Origin: Amaurobius ferox
Lineage: Eukaryota; Arthropoda; Arachnida; Araneae; Amaurobiidae
Direction: 5' to 3'
Assembly: GCA_951213105.1 (NCBI GenBank)
Contig: OX578147.1
Location: 128,783,322 to 128,847,321, forward strand
Length of the DNA: 64,000 nt
Of this stretch, positions 11,177 through 61,492 are shown piece after piece (positions within the stretch are counted from its first letter, which is position 1; each line of letters begins with the position of its first letter). The notes beneath the pieces are model-generated. The model ran no database searches. It had not been told where the DNA came from and was given only the letters and a program-made list of their open reading frames with translations. A program made the position numbers and the translations under genes.

Positions 11177-11295
11177 AAAAAATATGGCCTTCTGTGCATA
11201 GGATGTATACTATGTATGTGTATTTCATTATCGGTCTGTTTGTAGTGTAACGTGCTTAACATTTTATGTTTAGAAGCGTTCACACGCGCAACATG

Positions 11296-11419
11296 TTACA
11301 GAGTCTACCTCGACAATAAGAACTTGCAATTTCGGCTCAGTGGCTCGCCAGTTCGGAGATCCGGGGTTCGAAGGTTGGGGCAGCAAATCCGGGGTTGGGG
11401 CAGCAAGGTTTTTTTACGA
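11296..11419 (+). repeat. TRIM 5' LTR, copy 1
   Basis: Begins near ACAGAGTCTACCTCGAC and ends TTTTTTTACGA next to the putative primer-binding site. It contains a diverged A-box-like GGCTCAGTGGCTCGCC and a partly duplicated segment around the B box (GGGGCAGCAA occurs twice, 11380-11410). Confidence 0.7.
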
Positions 11420-11461
11420 TGGCGCCGCCCGAACAAATAAATCTTGTAGAATAGTGCAAAG

Positions 11462-11551
11462 ATGTCTGAGTCTGAAAGTGACCCTAGTACGACTAGCACG
11501 GATTCAGTGGACTCTGAGATATGGAGCGCCGATTTCAAGTTAGGAGGGTAA
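11462..11551 (+). CDS. 29-codon acidic ORF inside TRIM copy 1
   Basis: ATG at 11462 gives a short Ser/Glu/Asp-rich peptide, MSESESDPSTT..., ending in a stop at 11549-11551. The homologous place in TRIM copy 2 (about 22850-22775, minus) has a frameshift and early stop, so there is no sign of conservation. It may be the relic of a gag start. Expression is unlikely. Confidence 0.3.
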   Translation: MSESESDPSTTSTDSVDSEIWSADFKLGG

Positions 11552-11677
11552 CGACCACGCAGGATACTAACCTGGGAAAAAATAGTAGTATCAGTAGGCT
11601 AACCTGAGGTAAAAATAACAGGAGGTGGTCAGTCAGATTGCCAGTTGCACGTCAATCTGGCATTAGAAGGTGGAGGA

Positions 11678-11801
11678 TGCAGAATCCACTTCGACAATAA
11701 GAGCTTGGCGTTTCGTTCCAGTACCTCAACGGTAGAACATTGGCTCGCCAGTTCAAAGATCCAGAGTTCGATTCCCGGTTGGATCAGCAAGGTTCTTTAC
11801 A
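11678..11801 (+). repeat. TRIM 3' LTR, copy 1, with tRNA-like module
   Basis: 124 bp from TGCAGAATCC to TTCTTTACA. It contains ACCTCAACGGTAGAACA (A-box-like, D-arm) and AGAGTTCGATTCCCGG (B box/T-arm). Its length is identical to the solo LTR at 31987 and the LTR at 22510. Confidence 0.8.
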
Positions 11802-11949
11802 ATATTTTGTTAATTTCGTAATTAATTCGTAATAATTTTTCGAAAATATAATTTTTCTCCGAACTTGGAAAACGCAATGAAAATTAATGTATTACAGAAA
11901 AAAAGTATAAATAATTAAATATTTTTCCAGGATAAGCACTGCCAATTGC

Positions 11950-12240
11950 AAAATATGTGCAAAATATGGCCCACACGTGACGGTGGAATCACCCAATATT
12001 CATTTCTCTTTCTTAACCTTTATCTCCACCGGAATTCGACACCTGCAGATGTCACTCTTCTCGGACGAATCGATAGTCAACGTGAGGTAAGGGTACGATA
12101 TCGTCAAAGTTCCACTTTTCTTTGGGTCTGGTTTTTCTCATCTTTTCCTCTGTAGTCTTGAAAATTCTAAGAATGTGCTCAAACTAATGCGGTATCGCCA
12201 TTTATATTTTTTCTGGCTCTTGGGTTAAAAGGAAAGGGAG
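11950..12240 (+). repeat. Dispersed repeat W, copy 2
   Basis: Second copy of the 8505-8775 repeat, same orientation and similar divergence along its length. Function and class unknown. Confidence 0.6.
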
Positions 12241-12430
12241 AACAAGGATCTGTTGAGAACATTGATAACGCTCGAATGGCATTTTTGAAGTTCCTTTACA
12301 TGTTTATCAAAAGAATTGATATTGCTTTCCCTACAATGCATAATATACATGTTGTTCTAAAAGGTTAGCAATAGGTTAGCAAAGGTTAGAAAATTTCTCT
12401 TTAAATGATCTTTAACCTATACTTAAACAA

Positions 12431-12530
12431 TATACTTGCAATTACAAATCCTCGACATATTCTTGCAATTACAAATCCTCGACATATACTTGCAATTATA
12501 AATCCTCGACATATACTTGCAATTACAAAG
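12431..12530 (+). repeat. 27-bp tandem repeat
   Basis: About 3.7 copies of a 27-bp unit starting TATACTTGCAATTACAAATC, at 12431, 12458, 12485 and 12512, with one or two changes per unit. Because 27 is a multiple of three it keeps a repetitive ORF open on both strands; this is a by-product. Confidence 0.9.
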
Positions 12531-13231
12531 GTTCTTAACCTCTTCAAAGTCGACTGGAGACCCAGACTGCATACATTTAGGCTCATATAGAGAGGGGTTT
12601 GCCGGTACAAATTCCGGGGCCCGTTTTGTCTGCTGATTCCGGGTCTGGATTTATGAAGAACAATTTCCATCTACATGAATTTTTTTCCTCGTCCCGAAGC
12701 CCAAAATTATAGTTTTCTTTGGACCTGGGCGTCAGACATTTGAAATTATAACTATAAAAATTCCGGGCTTTGAATGGACTCGCTCATATGCGAGCTGTGA
12801 AAATATTTCAAATTAAGGTTTCATTTAACAACTAATTATGTAATTAGAAGTATAAAAAATTAATTTCAGAATTTGAGAATACTAACACAACAGAACTCAT
12901 AAGTTTTTAGAATTTGAATATTAAATGAAACAAATTTGAATACAGGAAAACATTGAAATCAAAGTAACATATTACAATCGCAAAAAAAGTATTTAATATA
13001 CTGGTGTACGTTCAAAATCGCACTGCATGCAAGTGCACAAGCGCTTTGATGAGTTGTTTAAAAGGTGTTGTTGACTCGTTGTTTGTAGGAAGCATCGCGA
13101 GCATGTGCAGTTTAAAATTGAGCGTTTCGCTCTTATATCAATTTGTTTTAACAATTGAAATTGCGATTCTGCAAATCTGCGTGTCATTTTACCACGTATG
13201 TATGCTAAATTTCATCTTCATATACCTATTG
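12531..13231. other. Unassigned non-coding stretch
   Basis: No repeat partner or convincing ORF was recognised. 12600-12800 has some GC-richer patches (CCGGGGCCCG, GGACCTGGGC). Confidence 0.4.
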
Positions 13232-13490
13232 TAGCATGGAGTTAGAAAGAAGGAGATAAAACTTCTATGGATGAAACGCTTGAAAGTGCCACATTGCTTC
13301 GAGAATTATATCTAGATGTCTCTAGTGTTAGTATAGTAGCCGCTACTGTTAGTTGACATAATAGAAAAGCGTAGTACTTAGTATATGTATTTCTGATTAT
13401 CTTTAAATTAAGCGTTCCTAATTATGAGTATGATTAACCAGTATTTTTTCATAGTTGTAGGATAGAGAACAGAATATAGGGAGATAAAAA
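13232..13490 (+). repeat. Dispersed repeat Z, copy 2
   Basis: Second copy of 588-850. The flanking sequences differ, which helps define its limits. The stretch 13491-13946 that follows holds nothing recognised. Confidence 0.65.
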
Positions 13491-13946
13491 AAAATTGAAA
13501 GGTAAAATAATTTTGAATACGTAGGAATATTCTTCATTTATTTCAGTTCTACTTTGCATTGCGCTAATAATTTATTTTTACAAAATTGGAAGTTTAAATA
13601 AATATTGTAGGCCTTTCGCCATGGAAATGCATACAATGCAGGGATACTTATTCCATCCCAGAGCCACCTGAATGATTGTTTCAAACGATATTGGCGCTTT
13701 TTTAATATGGAGTTCTATCTCCTCTTACCCCCATGTATTGTAGTTTTTAAATGAAAGGGATCACAAAACTCAGGCAAATGTAGATTTTCCTTCGTTAGGA
13801 ATGGAGAATGGACTTCGCTTCGTTTCTCCATAATTACATTTTCAAGAACTAAAATTTCAATAATTCTGCATTAATAATTCTACATTGGGAGAAGGGAAAC
13901 TAAATCTAATTCTAAAGATAAATCTTTGTCAACACAAGTAAAAAAA

Positions 13947-14864
13947 TCTGATGTGGGCAACACATAACTTTCCTTATATAATGCAATGAATTTACTACTT
14001 TTACAATAAAACAATAGGTTTTTTTTACAGTATATACTTGTATTCTTTCCAAGATATTGAATTTTCGTCAATTAGTCGTTATTTTCATTGATTTAGCGTC
14101 ATTCTTATCCATTTGGCTATATTTTCGTTAATTTGGCAACATTTTAAAAAGTCGCCAAGTTGGCGACATTCCACCAAATTCGTCGTCAAAATCCAGCCAA
14201 GCGTTATAAGCGGAGAAATAAGTTACTCTTATAGCAGATAAATGAATATTGGTGTTTAAATACAAAAGTATTACTCAAAGTATCTTTTCTCATGAATGGA
14301 ACGAACTAGATCCACGAGAATAATGTCACTCAATTTATCGCATGATATTACATATGAAAAGTGAACATGTTTCTCAGCAGTTAGTATATTTTTTTTAATT
14401 TATGGGATTTTTTGATAAATGTATTTAAAAAATGTGCAATATCTCGAGAACGGTTCATGCTAGCGTTCTAAAGTTTATGTCAATCGTTTTTTAAGGAAAA
14501 ATTAGATAAGAAATGTCTATTTGCGTAACTTTATTAAAGGTTTTGATTTTTTGATGATTTTTTCAAAATTTCATTCGAAAATTTAGGGAATTTCTGGACA
14601 TTCGATTACGTTTAAAAACAATAAGCTTCCAGTATTTACGGATTGTGACTTTTGTACCAAATTTCATTCAAATCGCTCCATTCGTTCGTGAGATATCGTC
14701 TCCACAGACTCACTGACACACACACACACACACACACACATCACTTCAAAAATGTTCGATTCGTGATCAGGGATGCTTGAAACGTGCTCTCATGTCGAAA
14801 ACTCGAATTCGAATTTTCGACCCCGTCACAATACTTTCCTTATACATTATGTATATAAGGAAAG
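13947..14864 (-). mobile_element. Family A element, full length
   Basis: 918 bp, from the terminal stem-loop (TCTGATGTGGGCAACACATA at 13947) to the 5' hairpin ending at 14864. It contains the GGCGA/GTCGCC-rich module (14115-14220), the CTCGTGGATCTAG-like block, CGAGATATT and a short (CA)n tract. Adjacent A residues fit insertion at a T-run on the element strand. Confidence 0.85.
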
Positions 14865-15441
14865 TAATAATTAATAGTGTTCCAACTGGCATGATATTTC
14901 GATTTGGATCCATTTCTCCTCTTTCTGGATTCGCTCAGAAAAAAGTGCCAACTATTCGAATCTATTCTTATTTGTTCCTTATACTTTCAAGCGTCACTTA
15001 CAATGAATGATATGTACAAATGAGAGAATTTTCTGAATTGTGCCAAATGCTGAAATGCAGTGAATGTGCCAAATGAAATGCTTAACTGATCATCTGTTCT
15101 TATTGTGAAGGATTTCACAAAGAGTTTTCCATCCAAAATGTAAATGAGAATAAAATCAGTGCCCATGCATCAAATGAGATCAAAACCAAGGTTCTGTCTT
15201 AAGTAAAGTGCTCAATTATTTTAAAAAGCGGATTTTGAGTGTTTTAATTATCTCTTCGTCTAGTCCCCCCCCCCTCATTCTAATTTTCTAAATTTTATAT
15301 GTTTTTCCCTTTTGTCTCGAAGCTGAGACGGATCGAATGACATCAAAACTAAGATTCTAACTTTTGGGAAAAAGCTTGATCATGTTGATAAATTAACCTC
15401 TCACTCATTCTGTCAGTTTTGTGCACATTATACTATATATT
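14865..15441. other. Unassigned non-coding stretch
   Basis: No partner repeat in this window and no convincing ORF. Contains a C-run (15266-15275). Confidence 0.4.
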
Positions 15442-16259
15442 GCTTTCTCTGCAATACATGGTATGTATAGGGAAAGTATTGGAATCGTATCAAAAGTCAG
15501 AATTCAAATTTTCGACAAATCTACATTTTTTAGCACTCTAAAACTTGAAAACACTAGTGTTAGTCTAGCGTCCGTGTGTATCGGTCTGTCTATGGAATGC
15601 ATTATCCACTCTAACTAAAAACTAATGGATCAAATGTCACAAAATTTTGTAGATAAGTCACAAAAACTTTGTAGATAAGTTTGTGGATTACCGTGGTGCT
15701 GATTACATTTTGGGATGATTTGGGAAAAAAAACATACCATTTTTTTGTGAAATGACTCTCAAAACCGTATGTATCTACTCTAACTGAAATACTAATTGAC
15801 CAAATTGTATAAAAATTTGGTAAAGTTATCTGTGGTCGCCCTGATGCTGAATAGATTTAGGTACGAGTTTAAAAAAAGAACCTGCTTTTTTATATGCGAA
15901 ATGGGCCGCAAAAATGGTCAAAATGTAAAATGAAACACTACGTATGCTCAAACGTATCCATTAAATGCTTGATTTATACGTAGATTTGGATAACGTAAGA
16001 AATAAGACTAACCCCATATATACTATAAAGCTAACTGTTTTCGAGATATTTTAGTTTTTCGTATTTTTGCCACATCGCCTTTGAAATTACGTCCAGTCTT
16101 CAAATGAAAACGAAAATTGAATCAAAACTGCAAATTCAGGGTCATTTCAAATAATTATCCGGGTTATTTTGTGCACTTAAACTCAATTTAATGAATTATG
16201 AATGAAAGAAAGCGAAAATGAATGAGTCTGTAAGGAAAGTCATGTGCTGCCCACATCAG
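15442..16259 (+). mobile_element. Family B element
   Basis: Diverged plus copy. Head GCTTTCTCTGCAATACATGG, then GTCAGAATTCAAATTTTCGAC, two copies of the ACTCTAACT...TGATTACATTTTGG module, a CGAGATATTTTAG motif and the end GTCATGTGCTGCCCACATCAG. Confidence 0.8.
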
Positions 16260-16341
16260 TTTTTAATCGCTTGTCCACTAAAATCCCTATTGTATACTTA
16301 AAAAAATGTATCTACTTTAGATATCTCTAGTACATAAAAAT

Positions 16342-16716
16342 AGGATGTGGTCAGCGCATAACTATATGATATGGAACAATATGATGTGATCAGCGCATGA
16401 CTATATGATGTGGTCAACGCACAACTATATGATGTAGAAAAATATGATGTGGTCAGCGCATGAATATATGATTTGGTCAACGCATGACTATATGATGTAG
16501 GTGAATATTGTGTGATCAGAGCATAACTATGTGATGTAGAAAAATATGATGTGGTCAGCGCATGACTATATGATGTGGAAAAGTATGACGTGGTCAGTGC
16601 CATGACTATACGATGTGGTAAAATATGATGTAGTCAGCGCATGACTATATGATGTAGAAAAATATAATGCGGTCATCGCATGACTTTGGAAAATTATGAT
16701 GTGATCAGTGAGTGTG
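16342..16716 (+). repeat. Minisatellite built from the family B terminal stem-loop
   Basis: About nine degenerate units of roughly 39 bp, each with ATGATGTGGTCAGCGCATGA followed by CTATATGATGTAGAAAAAT-like spacer. The core GATGTGGTCAGCGCATGACT resembles the terminal GATGTGGGCAGCACATGACT of family B/A (minus sense). It lies about 80 bp beyond the end of the family B copy at 15442-16259. The Tyr/Ser/Thr-rich ORFs on the minus strand only read the repeat. Confidence 0.8.
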
Positions 16717-16734
16717 TGCGCGCGATATTTCACG

Positions 16735-17150
16735 AATGTTTGGCGCCATTCCAAAGTTTTTAAAATTTAGTAATTATATACCTTGAGGGTTATCCTAATA
16801 TTGATTTGATTTTGGCATGGTTCGGGAACATATATATAATCGACCCTTTTTTGGGAAATAGCCCGCAAAGATCTTGAAGAACTGAAATAAATGACTAAAA
16901 TTGTTGGTACGTATTCATTGAATACTGGTTCTGCATGTAATTTTTGACAAAACAGCGAATAAGACTGACCCCCATGACTCTAGGATGAACCGTTCTCGAG
17001 ATACATTTTAGTGTATTGGAAGTTTGAGGAACTGGGGACTTTAAAGTGCATTAACTTGCCAAATGAAACGAAAATGCCCTTACAAATGCAAGTTAGATAT
17101 AACATCAGAAATATACCCATGCATCTAAACTCAATTTAATGCATCATGAA
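16735..17150 (+). mobile_element. Family B internal fragment
   Basis: Diverged plus-strand family B sequence: TGATTTTGGCATGGTTCGGG, the AAATAGCCCGCAAAGATC block, GAACCGTTCTCGAGATACAT and TTGCCAAATGAAACGAAAAT. The start and terminal stem-loop are missing; repeat F replaces the end. The CAAATGAAACGAAAA stretch shows the empty version of the site where the solo LTR sits at 31987. Confidence 0.65.
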
Positions 17151-20100
17151 ATAAAACAAGAAAGATCAATCATGCATAAAGCATTCATTATGAAACACTT
17201 TCCAACTGCAATGCAATTTTATTTAAACATCTCTAAAATGCGATACATTCAGCAGTCATATTTTTAAAATTATCACAATATTACATTAATTTATTATATT
17301 TGAAGACTTAAAACTTTATCGAAAAAACTGAACTTTATTCAAATAACGTCATTGAAATATAAATCGCCTGGCTCTCTATGTAAAAGCTGTAAATATTTCA
17401 TTCATACACTTTTTAACACTTTACAACAAAGTTTAAAAGTGTTTATGACTTTGTTCATTCTGTCTGTCTGTCTGTCCGTTAGCACGATAACTACAGTAGA
17501 AATGACTTACTCAAAATGAAATTTTAGTATGTTGTTCAGACGGTCTGTAGGACCTATGGGAATATAAATGAATAATATCACCCAATTAGTTTTAGATTGA
17601 ACCCGGGTTGAAAAAATGAACTACATTGAACCCTATGGGACCTAATTCTTCAAACATTTTTAAACGGATTTAAAATTCACAAATTGCTTCCAAAATTTTA
17701 GATAATATTCAAATTATTCCATAAAATATATAAAAAAATTTCAGCAAAATATATTCAGTAGTTTTTTAAATAAAATTTAAAATAAGAATTACACCTCATA
17801 TATGAAGCGATCACGTGACCATGATATAAAAAGATCACGTGACTCACTTCAAAATGATATATGGCATCCATCTTGTCTCAAAATCGTGATTTTTAAAGTT
17901 CTTTTTAATTCATATTGAATGTTGTATCCGTCCTAAAACCACTTTATTTTTGCTTAAATTCTGTGCATCTCCATACTGAAACAACGCAATTACAATATAT
18001 TTGAGTTTAAATGATCATCCAAATTTGATTATTTCTACAACGAAGCCTATTTTTCACTTATGTAAAATGTAAACAGCAAAATATGTGGAATGAGTTGTAC
18101 AAAAATTGCTATATTTCTTTAACGCAGAATTATTTAGCTCATGGAGTCTGCATAGCTGATATGAATGAAATATTCATTGATTTTACAGAGAGAAGGACGA
18201 TTTTTTTCAATGAAGTTTTAAGCATAGAGTTGAATTACTTGTAGTTCCATGGTCTTAAGTTGTTAAATAAAATAAATTATTTTAGTACTGTGATGAATGA
18301 AATGAATGAAATCCTGCTTTTATAGAGAGATCCAGGCGTGTTATTTTTTCTATGATGTCATTTGAATGAATTTCAGTTGTTTTCGATGAAGTTTTAAAAT
18401 ATAATAAATTATTGTAGTATTATGATAATTTTAAAAATGTTACCGAGGAATGTATCGCATTTTAGAGATGTTTAAACCAGGCAATTTATATTTCAATGCC
18501 GTCATTTGAATGAAGTTCATTTTTTTCGATAAAGGTTTAAGTTTTCAAATATAATAAATTAATGTAGTATTGTGATAAGTTTTAAAATATTACCGAGGAA
18601 GGTATTGCATTTTAGAGATGTTTAAATAAAATTGCATTGAAGTTGGAAAGTGTTTCATAATCAATGCTTTAAGCATAATTGATCAATGCTTTAAGCATCT
18701 TGAATTCTATTCCTTTCATTCATTCCAATACTACAATAATTTATTTTATTTAATAACTTAAAACCATGGAGGTACAAGTAATTTAACTCTATGCTTAAAA
18801 CTCCATCGAAAAATCGTCTGCTTCTCTATGTAAAATCAATGAATGTTTCATTCATATCAGCTATTTTCCAGACTCCAGAGCTAAATAATTTTGAGTTAAA
18901 GAATAGAGAAATTCAGCAATTCTTATACAACTCATCCTGCATGTTTATTTGTTTACATTTTCCATAAGTGAAAATTAGGCTTCATTGTAGAAATAATCAA
19001 AGTTTGATGATCATTTAAAATCAAATATATTGTAATTGCGTTGTTTCAAAATGTAGATGCACAAAATTTAAGCAAAAATAAAGCAATTTTAGGACATATA
19101 CAACACTACATATAAACACGAAAGATCAATCATGCATAAAGCATTGATTATGAAACACTTTCCAACTTAAGCAATTTTATATAAACATCTCTGAAATGCG
19201 ATACATTCCTCGGTAATATTTTTAAAATTATCACAATACTACATTAATTTATTGTATTTGAAAACTTCATCGAAAAAAATGAGCTTCATTCAAACGACGG
19301 CATTGAAATATAAATTGCCTGGTTTAAACATCCCGAAAATGCGATACATTCCTCGGTAATATTTTTAAAATTATCATAATACTACAATAATTTATTATAT
19401 TTAAAAACTTCATCGAAAACAAATGAACTTTATTCAAATGACGTCATCGAAATATAAATCGCCTCTCTATAAAACAGCATTTCATTCTTAAACATTTTTC
19501 CAATCGTTTCATTCATCACAATACCATAATAATTTATTTTATTTAAAAATTTGTTATCTACCATATTCTTAAACATTTTTCCAATCGTTTCATTCATCAC
19601 AATACCATAATAATTTATTTTATTTAAAAATTTGTTATCTACCATATTTATTTTAAAATGTGAAACCTTTCTTACATATAAATAATTCAACTCTTGGAAA
19701 GATATTTATTATATAATATAACTCTTTTTTCTTTCTGGAGGATATAGTAAGAGTCAGAATTTAATTGATTTTGTTTTTCTCCCTATATGAAATAATTTTT
19801 ATTTAAAAAACTACTTAACATATTTTATTGAATTTTTTTTATATATTTTATGGGATAATTTGAATATTTTCTAAAATTTTCGAAGCAATTTGTGAATTTT
19901 AAATTTGTTTAAAAAATGTTTGAAAAATTAGGTCCCATAGAGTTAGTTCAATGTATTTCATTTTTTCAACCCGGGCTTAATCCAAAACTAATTGGGTAAT
20001 ATTATTCTTTTATATTCCCATAGGTCCCACAGACCGTCTGAACAACATGCTAAAATTTTATCTTGATAAAGTCATTTTTACAGCAGTTATCGTGTTGACA

Positions 20101-20158
20101 GACAGACAGAATGAACAAAGTCATAAACACTTTTCAACTATATTGTAAAGTGTTAAAA
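17151..20158. repeat. Array of repeat F in both orientations
   Basis: A mostly complete plus unit (17411-18690) begins TTTTTAACACTTTACAACAA, has (TCTG)n at 17456-17478, and ends with GTTGGAAAGTGTTTCATAAT. Minus-oriented pieces lie at 17151-17400, 18684-19125 and 19126-20158. The outer ends, 17411-17805 and 19780-20158, form inverted repeats of nearly 400 bp. A single plus copy exists at 59416-60800. No coding capacity was recognised; the class is unknown. Confidence 0.7.
19484..19648 (+). repeat. 80-bp tandem duplication within repeat F
   Basis: Two nearly identical 80-bp units starting ATTCTTAAACATTTTTCCAA at 19484 and 19564. The near identity shows a recent duplication. Confidence 0.85.
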
Positions 20159-20214
20159 AAAATTGAAAATGAATTTAAGTCTGTAGGGATAGTCATGTGC
20201 TGCCCACATCAGAT
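20159..20214 (+). mobile_element. Family B 3' terminal fragment
   Basis: About 55 bp with AATTTAAGTCTGTAGGGATA and GTCATGTGCTGCCCACATCAGA followed by T's. Only the 3' end is present, directly beyond repeat F. Confidence 0.7.
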
Positions 20215-20504
20215 TTTTTCATTTTCTTATTTTGCAGCATCCGAAAAAGAAAAATTACCACAATTTTATAGTTTGGCAAAAATATGATATATTTTCGCAT
20301 TCTAATAAGAAAAAATGTTTTTCTTAATTAGTCTGTTTTCTGAATTTCTCTTAATTATCAACCCAAAACTTAAAAATCGAAATTTTCGATTTAATTTTTT
20401 TCTCCGGTTCGCTGAGAGCTGCTATGGGGAGAAGTGGATGTTCATAGGCATGCGTGGCAAATAGTCGTGCACGACTACACTTGTGTTGAAATTAAAGGAT
20501 TTGG

Positions 20505-21135
20505 ATTGAAACGAAAGGTGAATGATTTTGGTTCAAAACAGGAGATTTGTGGTACGACAGCCCAGTGGTTAGCGCGCGGGTATTGCGGACGAACTGAGAT
20601 CGATTCCCGTCTTTGGTTCAAATTGCCGCCGTGTTCACGCGGAGTCTGGACACGTTAAATATGTGGATCCGTAAGTCCTTCCGCGATGTTGGTGGTAGGG
20701 TTAGGAGGATACGGTCCCTGTGGATACCACCCCCACTGGATTCCGGTCTAAATTGAATGGCACTTTCCGGTCGCCCAAACAGATAGGTTACCCCTTCGAG
20801 TAGGTTGGACGGTCCTGGGTCGAAAAAAAAACAGAGAGATTTTGAAATTGAGTGGTGTTATTTGCATCTTTACTATTCACGTAACGCGCCCTTTTTTAAA
20901 ACACTGGCAACGGCGAGTTATTCGTTTTGGTTCTAAATATCCTGAAATTTGTTCAAAGCATTCCTCCCGGCTTGTTTTTACTCCGCCCCTTTATTCTAAA
21001 TATCGTTCAGAATACTAATGACTTTTGTAAGCCATTTGTTAATCAACAGCACGCCCAAGCGTGCACCAAGAATCACATCCTGTAGGCGTGGCAAATTGCG
21101 TGCATCGAAAACAAGATCGTAAAAATAGAAATTAT
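20505..21135 (-). repeat. Dispersed repeat R, copy 1, with nested SINE
   Basis: 20505-20552 joined to 20832-21135 matches 46727-47045 in reverse. Landmarks are AATGATTTTGGTTCAAAACA, ACTGGCAACG and AAGTCATTAGTATT-type blocks. The SINE at 20553-20831 interrupts it; the other copy is the empty version. Confidence 0.65.
20553..20831 (+). mobile_element. tRNA-derived SINE, copy S1
   Basis: Head: AGCCCAGTGGTTAGCGCGC (A box) and GAGATCGATTCCCGTC (diverged B box). Body: GTGTTCACGCGGAGTC, GTAAGTCCTTCCGCGATG, TTCCGGTCTAAATTG and GGCACTTTCCGGTCG. It ends with GGTCCTGGGTCGAAAAAAAA. It sits inside repeat R. The peptide reading KLPPCSRGVWTR... is not a gene. Confidence 0.8.
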
Positions 21136-21212
21136 GAAACAAGAACAGGTCTTGTTATATCAAATGCCAGAAAAGATTTTAAACCGGGAAGACAACCGAG
21201 TTTTTCGTTTTT

Positions 21213-21413
21213 ACTTTCCCTATGGTAATGTAACGGAAAAATGCCGAAAATCGCAACTCGGGTTTTCGACGGAACAACATGTTTCAAGCACTGTAGAACG
21301 CGAAAAACCTATTTTTAACATGACTTGTGTGTGTGTGTGAAATAGGTAATTCTGTTATCGGTTAACTTGACACTAAGTAGATTTTGGTATGGTTTAAAAA
21401 AAAATAGAACCTA

Positions 21414-21457
<44 letters not shown>

Positions 21458-21560
21458 CCAAAATGGTACTCAGAAATCGTCAAAGTATAAAATAAAAAGC
21501 TAAATATGGTTAAATGTATCGCTTAGCTCTTTGTCTTATAGGAAATATTTTACGGAGAAG
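21213..21560 (+). mobile_element. Family B fragment with long T-run
   Basis: Diverged family B head (ACTTTCCCTATGGTAATGTA), CTCGGGTTTTCGACGGA, a short (GT)n, then TAGATTTTGGTATGGTT, a T-run of more than 35 bases (21418-21457), and the CAAAATGG...AAATCGTCAAAGTATAAAAT block. The 3' end is lost. Confidence 0.65.
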
Positions 21561-21969
21561 ATTTCGTAAAAATCCATTGTTTGTGGCAGCTATCGTGTAA
21601 ACAAGAAATCGACCACTGACATACGACAGACGGACATAACTCTAAAAATAGTCAAAACGTGCTCAAGAGCTCCTAAAACATATAACTTCAAAGTCTCGAA
21701 TCACAAATTTTCGCGAAAACAATACTTGCTCTATATTCTATATAAAAAAGTAAAAATAAATTATTAATTGCTTTAAGAAAGCACGTGACTTTGAGCACTA
21801 TGCATAATATACTGGTTCACAACGTAGAATGCATCACAAATCAAGATAAATCAGCAAGCGTACGTTTCAGATATCAATTGTTCAGTGTAAAAAATCTAGA
21901 TCTGATCTGAACGCCCAAATAATGTCAAGACTATGTTGGCCAAACCGAAATGGCCTTCACAGCGAAGTA
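21561..21969. other. Unassigned non-coding stretch
   Basis: Contains ACATACGACAGACGGACATA. This resembles the (CAGA)n-type tracts of families A/B, but no boundaries can be set. Confidence 0.3.
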
Positions 21970-22265
21970 ATGATGTGCAAGATCCACATAACAATGATTT
22001 TGTCGTTGAATTAACACTGTGTAAATTGAAATTGAGCGTTTTGGCAACTTATTAGTCAAAACGAATGACTTATTCATACACACGTGCAAAATCCGCACTA
22101 AAATGCAATTGATATTTAATTAATATCTATTGTATGAACTAAATTATTTTTGGGGAATTCTTGAGCATCAAAATATAAAACGATTACAAAATGTATCTTC
22201 TCTCGTGAATGGAATGATCCAGATTCACGAGAATGATGTTGCAAAATATTTCAGATGGAGAGTAA
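21970..22265 (+). repeat. Dispersed repeat V, copy 1
   Basis: Matches 31085-31390. Shared landmarks include GTTGAATTAA, TTGGCAACTT, and ATCTTCTCTCGTGAATGGAA followed by CACGAGAAT. The last part also resembles the CATGAATGGAACGAGCTAGA block of family A, so V may be a distant relative of it. Confidence 0.6.
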
Positions 22266-22509
22266 TAGTCATAAATAGTCATAATATAGTCATAATAAAA
22301 AACACATTATTGTAAATCATCCGGAACAGTGGGTATGCTAACAAGATTTAAGAAAGAGTCCAATACTGAATAACAGGACCGTCAGTAGCTAATGCGGGGG
22401 CCAAAGCAAAACATAGTTTTGGGGCCCATACAAATAAGAAAGTAAAATATATATACATATATATATCAAAATTACAATGTACTGTTATAAATATAAAAAT
22501 TTCACACTC

Positions 22510-22633
22510 TGTAAAGAACCTTGCTGCCCCAACCGGGAATCAAACCTTAGATATCCGAACTGACCAACCGACGTTCTACCGTTGAACTACTGGGACGAAA
22601 TTGCAAGCTCTTATCATCGAAGTGGACTCTGCA
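22510..22633 (-). repeat. TRIM 3' LTR, copy 2, with tRNA-like module
   Basis: In minus sense: TGCAGAGTCC..., GTAGTTCAACGGTAGAACG (D-arm/A box), GGTTTGATTCCCGG (T-arm/B box), TTGGGGCAGCA, TTCTTTACA. GTCCCAG and TTGGGGC can pair as an acceptor-like stem. Confidence 0.8.
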
Positions 22634-22889
22634 TTCTCCACCCTCTAATATCAGATTGGTGTGCAACTGACATTCTGATTGACCACCTCCTGCTATTTTT
22701 ACCCCAGGTTAGCCACCTGATAGTACTATTTTTACTCAGGTTAGTATCCTGCGTGGTCGTTATCCTCTCACTTTGAAATCGACGTTCAGTCTTCCAGAGT
22801 CCACTGAATCCGTACTAGTCGTACTAGGTCACTTTTAGACTTCCGACATCTTTGCAATAACCTATAGGGTTAAATTGTTCTGGTGCCAC

Positions 22890-23016
22890 TGTAAAAATCC
22901 TTGCTGCCCCAACCGGGAATCGAACCCTGGATCTCCGAAATGGTCAGCCGACGCTCTACTGTTGAGTTGTTACTGAGATGAAATTGCAACCTCTTATCAT
23001 TGAAGTGGACGCTGCA
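22890..23016 (-). repeat. TRIM 5' LTR, copy 2, with tRNA-like module
   Basis: 127 bp. In minus sense: TGCAGCGTCC..., CAACAGTAGAGCGTCGGC, GGGTTCGATTCCCGG (perfect B box) and GGGGCAGCAAGGATTTTTACA. Confidence 0.8.
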
Positions 23017-23461
23017 ACTTAACTAACAACGTTTGATCATGGAATTGGGTATGAAACTATAACTTCAATAACATTATTTTTTCAGGGCTTTCAATTCAGT
23101 AAAATCATTTATAAGACATTCAAAATGCAAATTTTAACAGATTTTGTGTTCGATGGATAACTCGATTAAATTATTTAATCTACTTTGAGTCATTTTCGTT
23201 CATAGGTAATTTATTTTTAATTAATTTTTGCTTTGAAAAGCATCTCTCGACTGTGACCACAGGTACAGTTAACAAAATCCTCAAAGAAATTGTAAAATTC
23301 GGAAATAAACCACAAATTACTATTATTATAAATCACAAATTAATTTTATATCTCACATAAGGCTACATAAAACCTTTTATTTTCGGCGGCCGTGCCCCGG
23401 TCCTGTTCAAAAAGCGGGGTTTGGCATGGATCCCGCTCGCCCCTGGCTAAGAACGTCCCTG

Positions 23462-24418
23462 CTGGATAAGTGATGTTTTATTAAAAGGACCCGTAAGCGT
23501 AAACATGAGCAATACACAGCCAATAACACTGTAGTGATCTAACAATATTACAAAACAACTGTCAGGTCCAATAAAACAGCAATTAAATGCGCAAATAATT
23601 CACAAAATAACAATACTATTCTCGAAACACTGACACATCTCGCAATTCAATTTAGCTGGTATCACGTCAACAACGTCCAACTGTGCGATGACTCCCTTAT
23701 ATACTCTCCATAGAAATTTGTAGTAAGTGCTCGTGTCTCCAAGAATATTTAATATTTCGAGAAAATTGAAATATTGAATATTCTTGGAGATATTCAATAT
23801 TTCGACAATTATCAATATTTCGGCGATAAATCGCCGAATCTGGCAACCATGCTCCGACATTTATAATATTAAAATTCTATATTCACGTAATAGAAAAAGC
23901 TGTTGGTTGAGCAATTAAAGGCTCAAGAAAACAGAAAATCTTCTCATTCACAATTCACTTATAGATGTATCACGCCCTCACATCCATTCAGTCCAACTGA
24001 ACGAAGATCAATTTATATACCTTTTACTGAAAGATCTAGAAAAATCAACCTAAATCTGAACTAGAAAATTCGAGCCATTTCCAAGACTCGAAAAAGTTAG
24101 CAAGTTGGCGATATTTCACCCAATGTATCATAAAAGTTAAGTGATCCGGATCTTCAAAAACAGAAATGGTTGCCTTTAAATGTCGTTTTACCTGGGAGAC
24201 AGGCAATGGGCTGGGAAAGCATTTGGGTATACATTACATTATGGAGTCCCAGCGGCTCTCGTTGTAAGAAAGACATTCTGTGTAATTATTTTTTCATAAT
24301 ATTAGAATTTGCGAATCTGTTTTGTAAGTCATTTGTTAGATGCATCAGAATTTTTAAATTAAAGCTGTTATCACCTATACTGTAAAAAGAAAGGACTTCT
24401 GTTATGATATAAATTTTT
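23462..24418. other. Unassigned stretch with a long hairpin
   Basis: 23738-23787 forms a hairpin with arms of about 20 bp (CCAAGAATATTTAATATTTC and its near complement) around a short AT loop; nearby TATTTCG motifs extend it. Otherwise no repeat partner or ORF of interest. Confidence 0.5.
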
Positions 24419-25333
24419 ACTTTCCTTATATACATAATGTATAAGGAAAGTATTGTGACGGGGTCGAAAATTCGAATTCAAGTTTTCGACGGGAGAGCAC
24501 GTTTCAAGCATCCCTGATCACGAATCAAACATTTTTGAAGTGATGTCTGTGTGTGTGTGTGTGTCAGTGAGTCTGTGGAGACGATAACTGGCGAACGAAT
24601 GGACCGATTCGAACGAAATTTGGTACAAAAATCACAATCCGTAAACACTGGAAGCCTATTGTTTTTATACGCAATCGAATGTTCAGACCCCTCCCCCTAA
24701 ATTTTCGAGCGAAATTTTGAAAAATTCGTCAAAAAATCAAAACCTTTAATAAAGTTACGCAAATAGACATTTCTTATGTAATTTTTCATTAGAAAACGAT
24801 CAACATAAATTTTAGAACACTAACATGAACCGTTCTTGAGATAATGCACATTTTTCAAAAAAATTATCAAAAAGTTATAAAAAATAAAAAAAATATTTCC
24901 TATTGAGAAGCATGTTCACTTTTCATATGTAATACCATGCGATAAATTTGGTGACATCATTCTCGTGGATCTAGCTCGTTCCATTCATGAAAAAAGATAC
25001 TTTGAGTAATACTTTTGTATTTGAACGCCAATAGTCATTTATCTGCTGTAAGAATAACTTATTTCTCCGTCCATAACGCTTGGCGAGGTTTTGGCGATGA
25101 ATTTGACAGAATGTCCCTAACTAGGCGGCATTTTTAATTGTTGCCAAATTAACAAAAATCTTGCCAAATTGATAAAAATGATGCTAAATCAATGAAAATG
25201 ACGACTCATTGAAGAAAATTCAATATCTTGGAAAGAATATAAGTATCTACTATAAGAATAATATTTTTTTAAACTGTAAAAGTAGTAAATTCATTGCATT
25301 ATATAAGGAAAGTCATGTGTTGCCCACATCATA
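24419..25333 (+). mobile_element. Family A element, full length
   Basis: 915 bp from ACTTTCCTTATATACATAAT to the stem-loop CATGTGTTGCCCACATCATA. It carries the (GT)n tract at 24548-24562, the CGTTCTTGAGATAATGCACA block and the AATTTGGCGGA-type module. A T-run lies on both sides. Confidence 0.9.
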
Positions 25334-26997
25334 TTTTTTTGATTGAGGTGTAGTGTAGAAGGGTTTGAGTTCGATTTCATAAAATGTCTATTCTATTGCA
25401 ATCATTGGCAATTTTCAGCTTTTAGCAATTTTTCTGTGGGGAAAAATTGATTTCCTTGAAAATCATATTCCTCGTAATCATATAGGTAGCAGCGGAAGTA
25501 ACGAACGGTAGAAGCGAAACCCTTTTTCAACCCCCCCCCCCCCCCCCCCGCGCCCAATATTTTTGTTGTGGGTTCTTTGAACCCTTAATATTTTTGCGCG
25601 CATTTAATTGGTAAAATGTACACATATATGCATAAATTTTTGGTTTTTGTTATCAACTCCTCAAGTTTTTCATTATTCCTTCCCCGTTTATACTATACTA
25701 TAGGAAGTGTGTACAGAAATTTTACCTTCAGACTGTTTTCTATATTCGGAAGACAAGATTTTAACTTGTCTTTCGGTGGTTTAAATAGACAGTTGCTGAC
25801 ATTTTAACATTGGTAAAACTACCTAAAAATAAATGTTATGCTTTTTGTTACGTTTATAAAGATAATTGAGTTGGAAATTCACAAAATATCTATATATTGC
25901 GTACATATAGTAATGTTGACATTCCAAAGCAAAATAAATTAAATGAATAATTCTCTACAGAATTTTTTTTCTGTACTTAACAATTATTTGCTTCATTTCA
26001 GTATTTCAAGTGTCTTATGCCAGATAATCTGACTGAGTGAAATTTAAATTAGGCTTAAATCCTTTAACACTTCCGGTTCTTTCCTCATTTCAAAAATTTT
26101 CATTTTATTTCAAACACCTATCTCTCGGGATTGGCTATAGATAGAACTTAGGTGATAACATATGGATTCAGCATATTATTCCAGAGGTGATAAGGGTTGA
26201 GACAGTCATCTAAAGATTTCCGTTTCCGGTTCTGGTGATGCCAATACTGGGCTTTTCCTAAAAATGCATATAACTGCATGAAATAAGTATGCAAAGGGAT
26301 TAAAAATACTTAATAGCTCCGTCGAAAATGAAGTGTGCACATTATTTGCCATACCATTTAAAGGCCCCAGGTGCGTAACTATAAGCGTGGTTGAGCGACG
26401 CTTATAAAGGCTCAAACGTAGGATCCCAGAGCAAGCTCGAATACTAGCGGCACCTTTAACAAAATTATTTGTTTTCTCAAAACTTTTTATTGAAATATAG
26501 GAATATTTTATTGTTATCATAACGATTATACGCATTAAGTCATTAATGACACATTAAACCGATTTTTAAGATAAATACGAAAACAATTTCACGCAAAATA
26601 TCCAATTATTTGTTAAACATAAATAAAAATGTTTCTAAAATGTTTGAAAAATGTGGAGCCCTGTCAAGCGCGAAGTGGTCAACCAGGACGAGACCAAACG
26701 CGTGCGTTTAACGACGACTTTACTTCGCAATTTCCTTCATTTCGCAGCAGGGAATAACACATGTAGTCTCAAGACATTTTCTATTAGGAATAGAAATCTG
26801 GGGATCTGGTCGACTATGGTAGTATATTAGTACCCCGTATATATTCCCGTGAAATCTTTGTCGTATATGGACGGGAGTCATCATGTTGAAATAAGGCGTT
26901 ATTCACACCATTTATGAAAGAGATGCGCAGCTACAGGTTTTAAGATTTCAGCAATATAACGTCAAACTGATACATTGACGTCAATAACTGCTTGTCA
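25334..26997. other. Unassigned stretch with a 19-base C-run
   Basis: A C-run at 25531-25549. 26030-26170 contains CATTTTATTTCAAACACCTA and related blocks that resemble, in reverse, the degenerate repeats at 47230-47750. No convincing gene; the 109-codon minus ORF at 26206-26535 has no recognised domain. Confidence 0.4.
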
Positions 26998-27297
26998 GGG
27001 TGGGATAGCCCAGTGGTTAAGGCACGTGGATTGCACTCGGACGACCCGAGTTCGATTCCCGACTCTACCCAAATTGTCAAGATGTTCACGCGGAGTACGC
27101 GTACGTTAAATATGTCGGTCAGTAAGTCCTTCCGAGAGGTTGATGATGAAGGAAGGCAGTCAAAATCCCCGTGGTTGCCGCCCTCACTTGGTTCCGGTCT
27201 AAATTGGATGGCACTGTTACGGCCGTCTCCAAACAGGTACCTTACATCTTCTGGTTGGTCGAACGGTCTGGGTCAAACGAACAAACAACAACACATG
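26998..27297 (+). mobile_element. tRNA-derived SINE, copy S2
   Basis: The best-preserved tRNA-like head: GGTGGGATAGCCCAGTGGTT (A box) and CCCGAGTTCGATTCCC (perfect B box), with TCTACCC at the end of the tRNA-like part. Then the family body (TTCACGCGGAGTACGC, AGTAAGTCCTTCCGAGAGG, GGTTCCGGTCTAAATTGG) and the tail GGTCTGGGTCAAACGAACAA. Segment P follows directly. Confidence 0.85.
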
Positions 27298-27430
27298 TAG
27301 CATGGGCGCCCTTAAGAAAGGGCAAGGGGAGGGGACTTCTCCCCACCTGAATGTTCAAAATCACAAAGGCAAACATCAAGCTAGTCGATATTGTACTTCT
27401 TATCCTTGAGTTTGTCCCCTCCTGGAAAAT
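27292..27430 (+). repeat. Segment P following the SINE, copy 1
   Basis: ATGTAGCATGGGCGCCCTTA, a GGGGA-rich stretch, and CAAGCTAGTCGATATTGTAC. Copies on minus are at 54208-54312 and 55378-55452. It follows the SINE here and at 54313-54740, so it may be a longer 3' end of one SINE subfamily. Confidence 0.65.
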
Positions 27431-28369
27431 GTGCTATGGGCACTCATAACATGTAGTGTAAATGTAGTCATGACATGTAGTGTAAATGGTATAAGCTGAA
27501 GCAGTGAATAGTTTCTGAAACTATTTTAACACATTTGAAAATAATTTTCATTCAACTTTCTAGACATAAATTTGAGTAAAACTAGTGGAGCTGCAAAAGA
27601 AGAACAAAGGGAACAAAATGAGAAATTAAAGAAAAATTAAAAAAAATAAATTTTTTCAATTATGAAAATGGCTTCTTAAATAAAAGGATTTCTTTAAATT
27701 ACATATGGAGAGGATCCCCAGAAATAAAAATATTTTTGTAAATAATTTTTTTAGGGGGAAGGAAACTAAAATTTTGGCTCCGAAAATTCTAATTTTAGGA
27801 AAACTGAATTTATGGGAGCTCTTTTATACATATTGCTTAAGGAACTAAAATTGCAAGTTACGGCGCCTTCTTTTGATAAAATCAGTTAAGGTTACATCCA
27901 CTTCAAAATCTGAAAATGGCTCGTTTATTTATATTATCATCATCATCAATGGCTCGACCGCCCATTGTGGGCCTTGGCCTTCCTCAGAAGATTCTTCCAA
28001 GCTGTCCTCCTGGGAGCACTACTTCTCATTTGTTTATAATATAGCACTAATCACGAATCCCTGGGGAAGTGATTTTTTTCAACAAATTTTAACGCCGCTG
28101 ATTTTAGCAAAAGCTAGTTTAAATTTACGTCATATTTGCGGAACATGATGTGTGTTAAAAATGAAAGTTTTAATCATAACTGGAAGTCGAATTCTGAGAC
28201 CAGCCCACACAAATCCTTACAAATAGCATGCCCGTGATATTGTGTTATCTTTAAGGATTTAAAGATTTTAAAATTGTATAATTAAAATCAGGAACACTAT
28301 TAATCAGCTGTTTGTGTGACCCGTACTCTAAAACAATAATTTATAGAACCAGGATTACATGAAATCCTG
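27431..28369. other. Unassigned stretch with ATC-repeat block
   Basis: At about 27930-28030 lies ATCATCATCATCAATGGCTC followed by GGGCCTTGGCCTTCC. It resembles 3' ends of arthropod retroelements that carry (TGA)n-like tails in the reverse sense; this is a weak suggestion. Nothing else recognised. Confidence 0.35.
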
Positions 28370-28420
28370 GGTGCGCGTATGTGCGTGTGTTTAAGTGTGT
28401 GTGTGTATATGTGTGCGTGT

Positions 28421-28456
<36 letters not shown>

Positions 28457-29999
28457 CTGTCTGGAGACGATATCTGACTTACGAATGGAGCAATTCGAAC
28501 GAAATTTAGTACAAAAATTACAATCCATCCATGAATCTGGAAGACTATTGTTTTTAAACGCAATCAAATATTCAGAACTCCGCTAAATTTTCGAGTGAAA
28601 TTTTGAAAAAATCATTAAAACATCAAAACCTTTAAGTTGGGCAAATAACCATTTCTAATGTAATTTTCCATTAGAAAACGATTGACATAAACTTTAGAAC
28701 ACTAGCATGAACCCTTTTTCGAGATATTGCACACTTTTCAAATAAATTTAACAAAAAATCACAGAAAATAAAAAAAAATTTTAACTATTGCGGAATATGT
28801 TCACTTTTCATATATAATATCACGCGATAAATTTGGTGACATCACTCTCGTGGATCTAGCTCCTTCCATTCATGAGGAAAGATACTTTGGATAATACTTT
28901 TGCAGTTGGGCGCCAATAGTCATTTATTTATCTGCTATAAGAATTACTTATTTCTTTGGCCATAACTCGTGGCGGCACATTTGGCGCCAACTTGGCGACT
29001 TTTTTAAATATTGCGAAATTAACGAAAATATCGCCTAATTGATAAAAATTCGCCTTATTGATTAAACTGACGCTAAATGAATGAAAATAATGAACTAATT
29101 GACGCTAAATAATGAACTAATTGACGAAAATTCAATATGTTGGAAAGAATATAAGAATCTACGAGTACTATATGAAAAACCTATTTTTCCGTCCGTAACG
29201 TTTGGATAAAATTTTAATGACGAATTTTTCGGAATATCTCCAACTTGGTGACTTCTTAAATGTTGCCAAATTGATGAAAATGTCACCCAATTGATAAAAA
29301 TTCGCCAAATTGATGAAACTGACGCTGAGTCAATTAAATGACGACTAATTGATGAAAGTTCAATATCTTGGAAAGAACATAAGGATAGACTATAAGAATA
29401 ACCCATTTCTCCGTCCGTCCATCCGTAACACTTGGCGAGAAATTTAACTGGACGTCACCAACTTGGCGACTATTTTAAATGTTGACAAAGGGACAAAAAT
29501 ATCGCCAAATTGATAAAAATGACGCCAAATGAAAAGTAATGTTTCGCAAATTCTGATTTCCGTCATGTGACGAGCATACATTCTAGTATATAAGAAATTC
29601 TTTTCTCTCCGTTTGTCTGTAACACTTGATGTATCGTCAACTCGGTGATATTTCGTCCCAGATTGACGAAAATTTCGTCAAAATTGATAAAATGACGCTA
29701 AATTAATTAAAATGACACCTAATTGATGAATTAATTATTAAAATATTTTAATATATGGACTGTATCACTTATTTAGGATGCTTGCAATATTGATAATTGT
29801 TAATTTCGAGTTGTGTGGAATATAAGTTAATTGGGTGCTTTAAAATAGTATTACGTGCTGTCATCCGGAAAATCGTCCAATGTATAATCCAACCTTAAAA
29901 ACGCAGTACCGTGGATCTTATACATTCTTTTTTTACTGTAAAAGGATAAAATTTATTGCATTATATAAGGAAATAAATTCATGTGTTGTCTACATCAGA
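28370..29999 (+). mobile_element. Family A element, expanded internal module, 5' end lost
   Basis: Starts inside the (GT)n tract; head hairpin absent. The GGCGA/TTGGCGAC module with TTCAATATNTTGGAAAGAA and CGTCCGTAACGCTTGG occurs at least three to four times in tandem (about 28960-29770, period about 220 bp), making the element 1.6 kb. It ends CATGTGTTGTCTACATCAGA at 29999 and is followed by TTTTT and the next family A copy. Confidence 0.8.
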
Positions 30000-30004
30000 T
30001 TTTT

Positions 30005-30956
30005 ACTTTCCTTATATGCATAATGTATAAGAAAAGTATTGTGACGGGGTCGAAAATTCGAATTCGAGTTTTCAACGGGAAAGCACGTTTCAAGCACCTC
30101 TGATCACGAATTAAACATTTTTGAGGTGATGTCTGTGTGTGTGTGTGTGGTGTGTGTGTGAAAGTATGTGTGTGTGCGTGTGTGTGTCAGTGAATCTGTG
30201 GAGACGATATCTTACGAACAAATAGAGCGATTCGAATGAAATTTGGTACAAAAATCACAATCCGTTAATACTGGAAGCCTATTGTTTTTAAACGTAATTG
30301 AATGTTCAGACCCCCCCCCCCCTAAATTTTCGAGTGAAATTTTGAAATCATCAAAAAATCAAAACCTTTAAAAAAGTCACGCAAATAGACATTTCTTACG
30401 TAATCTTTCCTTAGAAAACGATTGACATAAACTTTAGAACGCTAGCATGAACCGTTCTCGAGATATTGCACATTTTTTAAATAAATTTATCAAAAAATCC
30501 CATAAATTAAAAAAAATATATTAACTGTTGAGAAACATGTTCACTTTTCATATGCAATATCATACTATACATTTGATGACATCGTTCTCGTGGATCTAGC
30601 TCGTTCCATTCATGAGAAAAGATTTTTTGAGTAATACTTTTGTATTTGAACGCCAATAGTTATTTATATGCTATAAGAATAACTTATTTCTCGGTCCATA
30701 ACGCTTGGCGAGATTTTGGCGCCGAATTTGGCGGAATGTCGCCAACTTGGCGACTTTTTAAATGTTGCTAGATTAACGAAAATCTCGCCAAATGGATAAA
30801 AATAACACTAAATCAGTGAAAATGACGACTAATTGGCGAGAATTTAATATCTTGAAAGGAATATAAATATCTACTATAAGAAAAACCTATTTTTTATTGT
30901 AAAAGTAATAAATTCCTTGCATTATACAAGGAAAGGCATGCGTTGCCCACATCAGA
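30005..30956 (+). mobile_element. Family A element, full length
   Basis: 952 bp, head ACTTTCCTTATATGCATAAT, (GT)n tract, C-run at 30311-30322, CGTTCTCGAGATATTGCACA and terminal CATGCGTTGCCCACATCAGA. Exactly TTTTT separates it from the previous copy. Confidence 0.9.
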
Positions 30957-31084
30957 TTTTTTGTAATTAGGAAAATGATTAAAATAATCAAGGTATTAAC
31001 GCTGTCTGTAAATAAAGAAATTAAGCATTTTGTATAATGCAATGGTTTTACTTCTTCCACAGTAAAATATAAAATAATGGTGTA

Positions 31085-31390
31085 CGAGATATGTCACAAT
31101 CTTTTTGGCGTTGAATTAATACCACGTAAATTGAGATTGGGCTATTTTGGCAACTTGCCTAAATAGAATGACTTATCTTTATCAAAATTCAAGCACAAAA
31201 TCCTTATCAAAATGCAGTTGACAATTTTTTACATCTTGTGATATAAAGGACTATTGACGAATTCTTTGAGGTCAAATAACAAGACTATTACAAAAGTATC
31301 TTCTCTCGTGAATAGAACGAATTAGATCCCCGAGAATAATGCTAAAAGATTCGTCGCCGAATGTTGCATGTGGAAAGTTAACCTATTGGA
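31085..31390 (+). repeat. Dispersed repeat V, copy 2
   Basis: Second copy of 21970-22265, same orientation. Confidence 0.6.
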
Positions 31391-31690
31391 GGATACATAC
31401 AAATTTTTTATTTTATATAATTTTATTATCAATTTATTTAAATAAAAACTTCCAATATCCCGAGAACGGTTCCTGCTAGCATTCGTTATCTAATGAAAAA
31501 GTGCGTATAAAATCTTTTAAATAATCGAAAATCGTGCGATACCTCATAAATGGTTCATACTAGCGTTCTATAGTTTGTATCATTATTTTTGTAATATAAA
31601 ACGACGGCTGAAATAGTAAAATGATTAATTTGATAGGGAATTAGTAACAGTTTCTTTGGTTATATATAATACTTACAGGGAAAAAAAACC

Positions 31691-31721
31691 TCTCCCCCTC
31701 TCTCTCTCTCTCTTTCTCTCA

Positions 31722-31784
<63 letters not shown>
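31691..31784. repeat. (CT)n(TA)n compound microsatellite
   Basis: CTCTCT-rich run followed by (TA)n. The surrounding 31391-31690 shows ACGGTTCCTGCTAGC and similar pieces of family A-like sequence, too diverged to delimit. Confidence 0.9.
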
Positions 31785-31787
<3 letters not shown>

Positions 31788-31789
31788 CT

Positions 31790-32275
31790 CAAAAATTGAT
31801 GACAAATTCAAAATAAATGACTAAAATTGCTTAAAATTATTAATTATATACTTGTTCTTTGTGTAATTTTGACAACAAAACAAATAAGACTGACTTTAAG
31901 CTGAACCGTTCTTGAGATATTTCGGTGTTTTTTTTATTAAATTTTGTGAAACATAAGACGTTTTAAAATGCATTACGTTGTCAAATTGCAGAGTCCACTT
32001 CAAAGATAAAAGCTTGCAATATCGTCGCGGTAGCTCAACGGTAGAGAGTCGGCTGGCCAGTTCGGAGATCTAGAGTTCGATTCCCGGTTGGGGCAGCGAA
32101 GCTCTTTACAAAATGAAACGAAGATGCATTAAAAATGAAAATTGGACATAATTCCAGAAAAGTAACCTTGTTATTTTCTGCAATTAAACTCAATTTAAGG
32201 CACCATATACGTAACATAAAAAATAAGAAAATGAATTTGAGTCTGTAGAGAAAGTCATGTGTTGCCCACATCAGA
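31790..32275 (+). mobile_element. Family B 3' part with a solo TRIM LTR inside
   Basis: Family B blocks TGACTAAAATTG, GAACCGTTCTTGAGATATTT, TTGTCAAAT | GAAACGAAGATG, and the terminal GTCATGTGTTGCCCACATCAGA. The TRIM solo LTR splits it at AAAT. The next family B copy starts 6 bases after its end. Confidence 0.75.
31987..32110 (+). mobile_element. Solo LTR of the TRIM, with tRNA-like module
   Basis: 124 bp, TGCAGAGTCC ... CTCTTTACA. It is flanked by a perfect 4-bp duplication AAAT (31983-31986, 32111-32114). Removing it restores TCAAATGAAACGA, found unoccupied in the family B fragment near 17070. The tRNA-like part has GGTAGCTCAACGGTAGAG (D-arm, A box) and GAGTTCGATTCCCGG (T-arm, B box). A solo LTR with target duplication supports an LTR-type element rather than a SINE. 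The anticodon arm is not tRNA-like, so it is not a tRNA gene. Confidence 0.85.
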
Positions 32276-57140: not shown

Positions 57141-57147
57141 AAAATGT

Positions 57148-61188: not shown

Positions 61189-61423
61189 TTTTTTTGTTTC
61201 ACTCATTTTTTCACACCTCTAAAGAGTTTTTTTTTTTTAATATTATTTTTTCCATTTGGCAACGCCTATCTTCCTGAGGCGCTTGAACATTTTATTTCAA
61301 ATATTCCAACGAAGAAGGTTCTTTTTGCCTTCGAAACCGATTGATACATTTAATCAACATCCTTATGCTGTGAATAATGGATTATTTAATGTTCAGATTG
61401 CAGAAGGAATGACTATCATCTCA

Positions 61424-61492
61424 CTAGCTCAATTGATAAAACATTGTCTGGCCATCGGAAGATCGGTGACTCGAATCTCCGCTGGTACATAA
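61424..61492 (+). other. tRNA-like sequence, probably a SINE or tRNA relic
   Basis: TAGCTCAATTGATAAAACAT (A-box/D-arm-like) and GGTGACTCGAATCTCCGC (degraded B box) at tRNA-like spacing. It precedes a family B 3' stub ending TGTACTGCCCATTTCAGA at 61532. No convincing cloverleaf. Confidence 0.4.

Follow-up and report, generated by a model that had tools for sequence, protein, structure and literature searches.

A stretch of 64,000 nucleotides from the genome of the spider Amaurobius ferox (contig OX578147.1, positions 128,783,322 to 128,847,321; referred to here as the window) contains two short elements, each built of a long terminal repeat (LTR), an interior and a second LTR, as well as a solo LTR of the same kind. 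The initial annotation, which was made from the letters alone, had described three loci with a common unit of about 124 bp, two of them paired and one solitary, and had interpreted them as a terminal-repeat retrotransposon in miniature (TRIM) whose LTRs hold a promoter for RNA polymerase III (Pol III) resembling that of a transfer RNA (tRNA). Five LTR copies do indeed lie at these three places. The parts of the elements are the following:

11297-11801 (+): element 1, 505 bp, LTR-interior-LTR
11293..11296 (+): left 4-bp flank of element 1, ATGT
11297..11418 (+): 5′ LTR of element 1, starting with TA (the others with TG), T7 run at its end
11420..11435 (+): primer-site-like stretch of element 1, TGGCGCCGCCCGAACA
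11462..11551 (+): longest ATG frame of element 1, 29 codons plus stop, located after the primer site
11665..11677 (+): purine tract of element 1, AGAAGGTGGAGGA, with one T, touching the 3′ LTR
11678..11801 (+): 3′ LTR of element 1, tRNA-like part at 11715-11786
11802..11805 (+): right 4-bp flank of element 1, ATAT
23016-22510 (-): element 2, 507 bp, LTR-interior-LTR
23017..23020 (-): upstream 4-bp flank of element 2, AAGT
22890..23016 (-): 5′ LTR of element 2, T5 run at its end
22876..22888 (-): primer-site-like stretch of element 2, TGGCACCAGAACA
22634..22646 (-): purine tract of element 2, AGAGGGTGGAGAA, with one T, touching the 3′ LTR
22510..22633 (-): 3′ LTR of element 2, tRNA-like part at 22525-22596
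22506..22509 (-): downstream 4-bp flank of element 2, GAGT
31983..31986 (+): left duplication of the solo LTR, AAAT
31987..32110 (+): solo LTR, tRNA-like part at 32024-32095
32111..32114 (+): right duplication of the solo LTR, AAAT

The LTRs have a length of about 124 bp. Four of the five start with TGCAG and one with TACAG, and four end with TTTACA and one with TTTACG. The TG and CA termini which had been ascribed to the unit are thus present in most copies, but not in the TA start of the 5′ LTR of element 1 or in the single TTTACG end. Similarly, the range first given for element 1 (11296-11801) was correct at its end, but the start has to be placed at 11297 because of the 4-bp flank. The solo LTR lies within a perfect AAAT duplication, as had been reported, while the flank pairs of element 1 (ATGT/ATAT) and element 2 (AAGT/GAGT) are identical at three of four positions each. 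Both internal hallmarks named in the initial annotation, a primer-site-like motif after the 5′ unit and a purine tract before the 3′ unit, were recovered in the two elements. The primer-site-like stretch begins 1 nt past the 5′ LTR in either case. In element 2 (TGGCACCAGAACA) it agrees at 11 of 13 positions with the complement of what we take to be the 3′ end of tRNA-Lys(UUU), the sole tRNA compared, and in element 1 (TGGCGCCGCCCGAACA) 10 nt (11426-11435) match the same complement without a gap after an altered start, so the match is imperfect in both of these old copies. The purine tracts are AGAAGGTGGAGGA and AGAGGGTGGAGAA.

Neither element contains an ATG frame of more than 29 codons, and the longest one in element 2 has 19 codons. 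The 29-codon frame of element 1 is perhaps the leftover gag start of a parent element, which is a guess. Directly before the purine tract a possible hairpin was noticed (11639-11662 (+) and the equivalent place in element 2), with one double change that keeps the pairing (TGCCAG/CTGGCA versus TGTCAG/CTGATA, as judged by eye). When the two interiors were folded jointly, the two-row alignment gave -40.5 versus a column-shuffle mean of -31.0 (standard deviation (sd) 4.3), with one of 200 shuffles being as low; two sequences are, however, too small a basis for a conclusion. The hairpin was not seen in separate folds of the last 62 interior bases.

As short interspersed nuclear elements (SINEs) likewise possess a tRNA-like block in which boxes A and B are found, and as a tRNA-headed SINE family is present in the same window, the paired copies might be viewed as a SINE dimer, i.e., as tRNA-derived SINE units which became paired by chance around a spacer. 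This is highly improbable. The two separate elements have a common interior which is identical at 203 of 254 positions (79.9%) and which carries the primer-site-like stretch and the purine tract in the correct places, and the solo unit exhibits a 4-bp duplication and no tail. By contrast, the real SINE at 53158-52876 (-) lies between two copies of the same 15 bases (53173-53159 and 52875-52861) and has an AAC-rich end, CAACAACAA. A third occurrence of these 15 bases was found on the opposite strand, at 52501, where they are single and unbroken in an empty counterpart of the target (52459-52575); this counterpart is identical to the left side of the SINE target at 55 of 57 positions and, by eye, continues alike on the right side. 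As the empty counterpart carries the 15 bases only once, the 15-bp duplication of the SINE is real. With regard to the features expected of SINEs, a long target duplication, a 3′ tail and the lack of an LTR pair, the elements show 4-bp flanks, no tail and paired LTRs. The dimer was therefore discarded on the basis of the 4-bp flanks, the common interior and the contrast with the SINE at 53 kb. As far as a single window goes, the TRIM interpretation has thus withstood the test which the initial annotation had itself proposed, namely that long duplications and tails would point to SINEs. The copies of the tRNA-headed SINE family, which have a common body, are located as follows:

26999-27285 (+)
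53158-52876 (-)
20556-20833 (+)
57082-56893 (-)
54705-54296 (-)
61948-62033 (+)

The tRNA-like character of the LTRs was examined with the Rfam tRNA model, whose gathering score is 29 bits. The 3′ LTR of element 2 reaches this score (29.1 bits, E-value 0.057 in the search of the window), and the 3′ LTR of element 1 (18.0 bits) and the solo LTR (15.2 bits) match below it. The best copy spans the whole cloverleaf model, with four non-standard-pair positions among the columns shown. The solo LTR has box A at 32031 without mismatch and box B at 32074 with one mismatch, 43 nt apart from start to start. The earlier assertion that each LTR carries both boxes is wrong for one of the five. The 5′ LTR of element 1 has lost box A in a 22-bp gap (22 aligned columns) and its box B region is partly duplicated; in the 5′ LTR of element 2 box B is perfect and a 3-nt insert interrupts box A. 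Both 5′ LTRs are nevertheless homologous to the LTRs which match the tRNA model. Pairs of boxes A and B with at most two mismatches each were counted 16 times in the window versus 4, 7, 5, 16, 10 and 8 times in six simulations. As one simulation equals the window, such pairs alone were dropped as evidence. ARAGORN with the bacterial code identified no tRNA genes. The predicted tRNA-likeness is hence supported by the model score of one copy together with the homology of the other copies to it.

Elements 1 and 2 are 82.2% identical over 410 bp (E-value 5e-113), in an alignment which omits the first ~110 bp of the stretch of element 1. The two LTRs of element 2 align with each other at 82.8% over 128 columns (E-value 1e-32). 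Those of element 1 yield a piecewise match only (best piece with an E-value of 1.6e-5), because of the 22-bp gap and the partial duplication in its 5′ LTR. Calculated from exact ends and over ungapped columns, the LTR pair of element 1 is identical at 83 of 105 positions (79.0%) and that of element 2 at 105 of 124 (84.7%). This divergence of the LTR pairs and of the interiors shows the elements to be old, with copies that have decayed away from each other.

A profile of the five LTRs, searched with nhmmer, recovered by construction these five and additionally a sixth, weak match at 61412-61504 (E-value 5.6e-4), while the 21 null sequences, each 64 kb long (the reversed window plus 20 simulated ones), yielded no match. 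The sixth copy, which stands alone, can be described as a relative of the LTR in an advanced state of decay:

61398..61505 (+): sixth LTR copy, profile match at 61412-61504

Its TGCAG start at 61399 lies upstream of the profile match, across a gap of 16-17 columns, and no clear flanking duplication surrounds 61398..61505. Aligned with the solo LTR it scores 8, whereas 500 shuffles average -16.6 (sd 4.5) and do not exceed -4, and aligned with the 3′ LTR of element 2 it scores 4 (shuffles: mean -15.4, sd 4.2, maximum -2). As the sequence that separates the two boxes (CTGGCCA, CGG, AGATC) aligns as well as the boxes do, this copy is read as a relative of this particular LTR family and not as any tRNA-like sequence. 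Scans with exact patterns gave no matches in viral contigs and none in contigs of prokaryote genomes.

A tRNA-type counterpart in animals was not known to the initial annotation, a view that has been overtaken by the description of Helenus, which comprises TRIMs with tRNA-derived LTR sequence found in fungi, in one plant and in animals of six phyla (Kojima, 2024; PMC10886601). According to the part of that paper considered here, Helenus elements are short (311-1263 bp), non-coding LTR elements with a tRNA-like LTR containing boxes A and B, a primer site complementary to a tRNA 3′ end just past the 5′ LTR, a purine tract preceding the 3′ LTR, and solo LTRs. Those of animals have 4-bp duplications and Gypsy-like primer sites, with Gypsy elements as likely partner, and for the hymenopteran families tRNA-Lys, Leu, Trp or Arg is given as primer (PMC10886601). 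The elements of the window, with 505 and 507 bp, fall within this size range. Rfam tRNA matches are found in three of their five LTRs, the stretches TGGCACCAGAACA and TGGCGCCGCCCGAACA resemble a complement to a tRNA 3′ end (with tRNA-Lys(UUU) as the only comparison), AGAAGGTGGAGGA and AGAGGGTGGAGAA precede the 3′ LTRs, and the 4-bp flanks comprise one perfect pair and two with one mismatch each. Judged by these features, the element is another, ancient representative of the known Helenus kind. Literature searches, judged by titles and opening lines, revealed no report of a tRNA-type TRIM beyond PMC10886601, whose list of arthropod hosts, in the part considered, includes wasps only.

Other known systems share single aspects with the elements. 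Cassandra of plants also has a Pol III promoter in the LTR of a TRIM, but this promoter is 5S-derived and not tRNA-derived (as described in part of PMC10886601). The tRNA-derived SINEs share the tRNA-like head and its boxes A and B, but lack LTRs, primer site and purine tract. PbTRIM, an insect TRIM of ants, belongs to the same size class (480-781 bp) and likewise has 4-bp duplications (PMC3532108), so that the elements might be seen as a TRIM of this type, transcribed by RNA polymerase II (Pol II) and unrelated to Helenus. However, the part of that report considered describes a TATA box, LTRs of 152-184 bp and a leucine-tRNA primer site, with no mention of a tRNA-like block (PMC3532108). The LTRs of the window are ~124 bp long, none of the five contains TATAAA, and the primer site is lysine-like, with tRNA-Lys(UUU) as the sole tRNA compared. 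Kinship with PbTRIM instead of Helenus is accordingly extremely improbable.

The anatomy comprises paired LTRs with 4-bp flanks, a primer-site-like stretch, a purine tract, a solo LTR and a tRNA-like LTR block, and a TRIM whose LTRs hold a tRNA-like promoter block, as initially proposed, fits it best. Taken together with the Pol III transcription and trans-mobilisation which we infer for them, the loci are very probably old copies of a Helenus-type, non-autonomous TRIM. Pol III would bind boxes A and B of the 5′ LTR, start near LTR position 38, where the tRNA-like block begins, read across the ~257-bp interior and end in or beyond the 3′ LTR. A Gypsy-type element which uses tRNA-Lys as its primer might package the resulting RNA, reverse transcribe it in trans and insert it through its integrase with a 4-bp stagger. 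Recombination between the LTRs could then yield solo LTRs. The findings would add copies to a kind of mobile element which was named only recently, has been little tested, and combines a promoter like that of SINEs with the life cycle of an LTR element. A host with young copies would permit a direct test of Pol III as the maker of the genomic RNA. Moreover, elements of this kind give rise to false calls of tRNA genes.

Several observations weigh against this interpretation. All copies were drawn from one 64-kb window, the tRNA gathering score is reached by only one of the five LTRs (with the E-value of 0.057), and both 5′ LTRs give no Rfam tRNA match. Two of the three flank pairs contain a mismatch, and the presumed 3′ end of tRNA-Lys(UUU) is the only one that was set against the primer site. 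No autonomous partner was seen in the window, in which Gypsy-type elements were not sought thoroughly; Pfam was run on nine of the 20 listed frames and matched only two Penelope-like frames. A run of four Ts is absent from the sense strand of either interior (254 and 256 bases), but the same absence was observed in 87% and 86% of dinucleotide shuffles and in 70% and 62% of base shuffles and was, being this common, dropped as evidence. At the LTR end, TTCTTT is present in both 3′ LTRs, CTCTTT in the solo LTR, and T7 and T5 in the 5′ LTRs of elements 1 and 2. As these T tracts differ between copies, they point to no single place at which transcription would stop.

That just one of five copies reaches the tRNA gathering score also suits a Pol II-transcribed TRIM in which the tRNA-like block is an unused passenger, left by a SINE or a tRNA gene inserted into the LTR at some time in the past, and Kojima, too, calls the use of Pol III by Helenus unproven, as stated in the part of the paper considered (PMC10886601). 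Against such a passenger stand the nearly perfect boxes of the solo LTR with their spacing of 43 nt, the lack of TATAAA in all five LTRs, and the repetition of the same layout across many Helenus families described there (PMC10886601). Transcription by Pol II is thus unlikely, although it retains some weight. Within the Pol III interpretation, it is conceivable that the copies represent a Helenus lineage of an animal group outside the published host list, in which the weak T-rich tract TTCTTT at the LTR end would act as a leaky Pol III terminator, so that part of the output would be a short, tRNA-like RNA and the remainder full genomic RNA, similar to the effect of poly(A) signals in R of Pol II elements. 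This elaboration appears quite improbable.

Further features were observed elsewhere in the window. What we take to be a Penelope-like element is located at 4216-7014 (-) and consists of adjoining frames which carry a reverse transcriptase and a GIY-YIG domain; for the second of these frames eight related proteins with 25-44% identity were found. Four arrays, each with about two copies of a similar-looking unit of 150-154 bp, lie at 9348-9649, 10682-10979, 32374-32648 and 40633-40932. An AT-rich inverted repeat of ~59 bp at 23734-23792, which gave several microRNA model matches, all of them below threshold, is perhaps a small inverted-repeat element. Finally, two units resembling 5S ribosomal RNA are present at 57147-57265 and 57469-57587 (-), with scores of 96.3 and 92.4 bits and ~200 bp apart. 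As a SINE copy, with its head at 57140-57102 and its body reaching to 56893, starts within ~7 bp of the first of them, this unit and the adjoining SINE could be a 5S-plus-tRNA composite.

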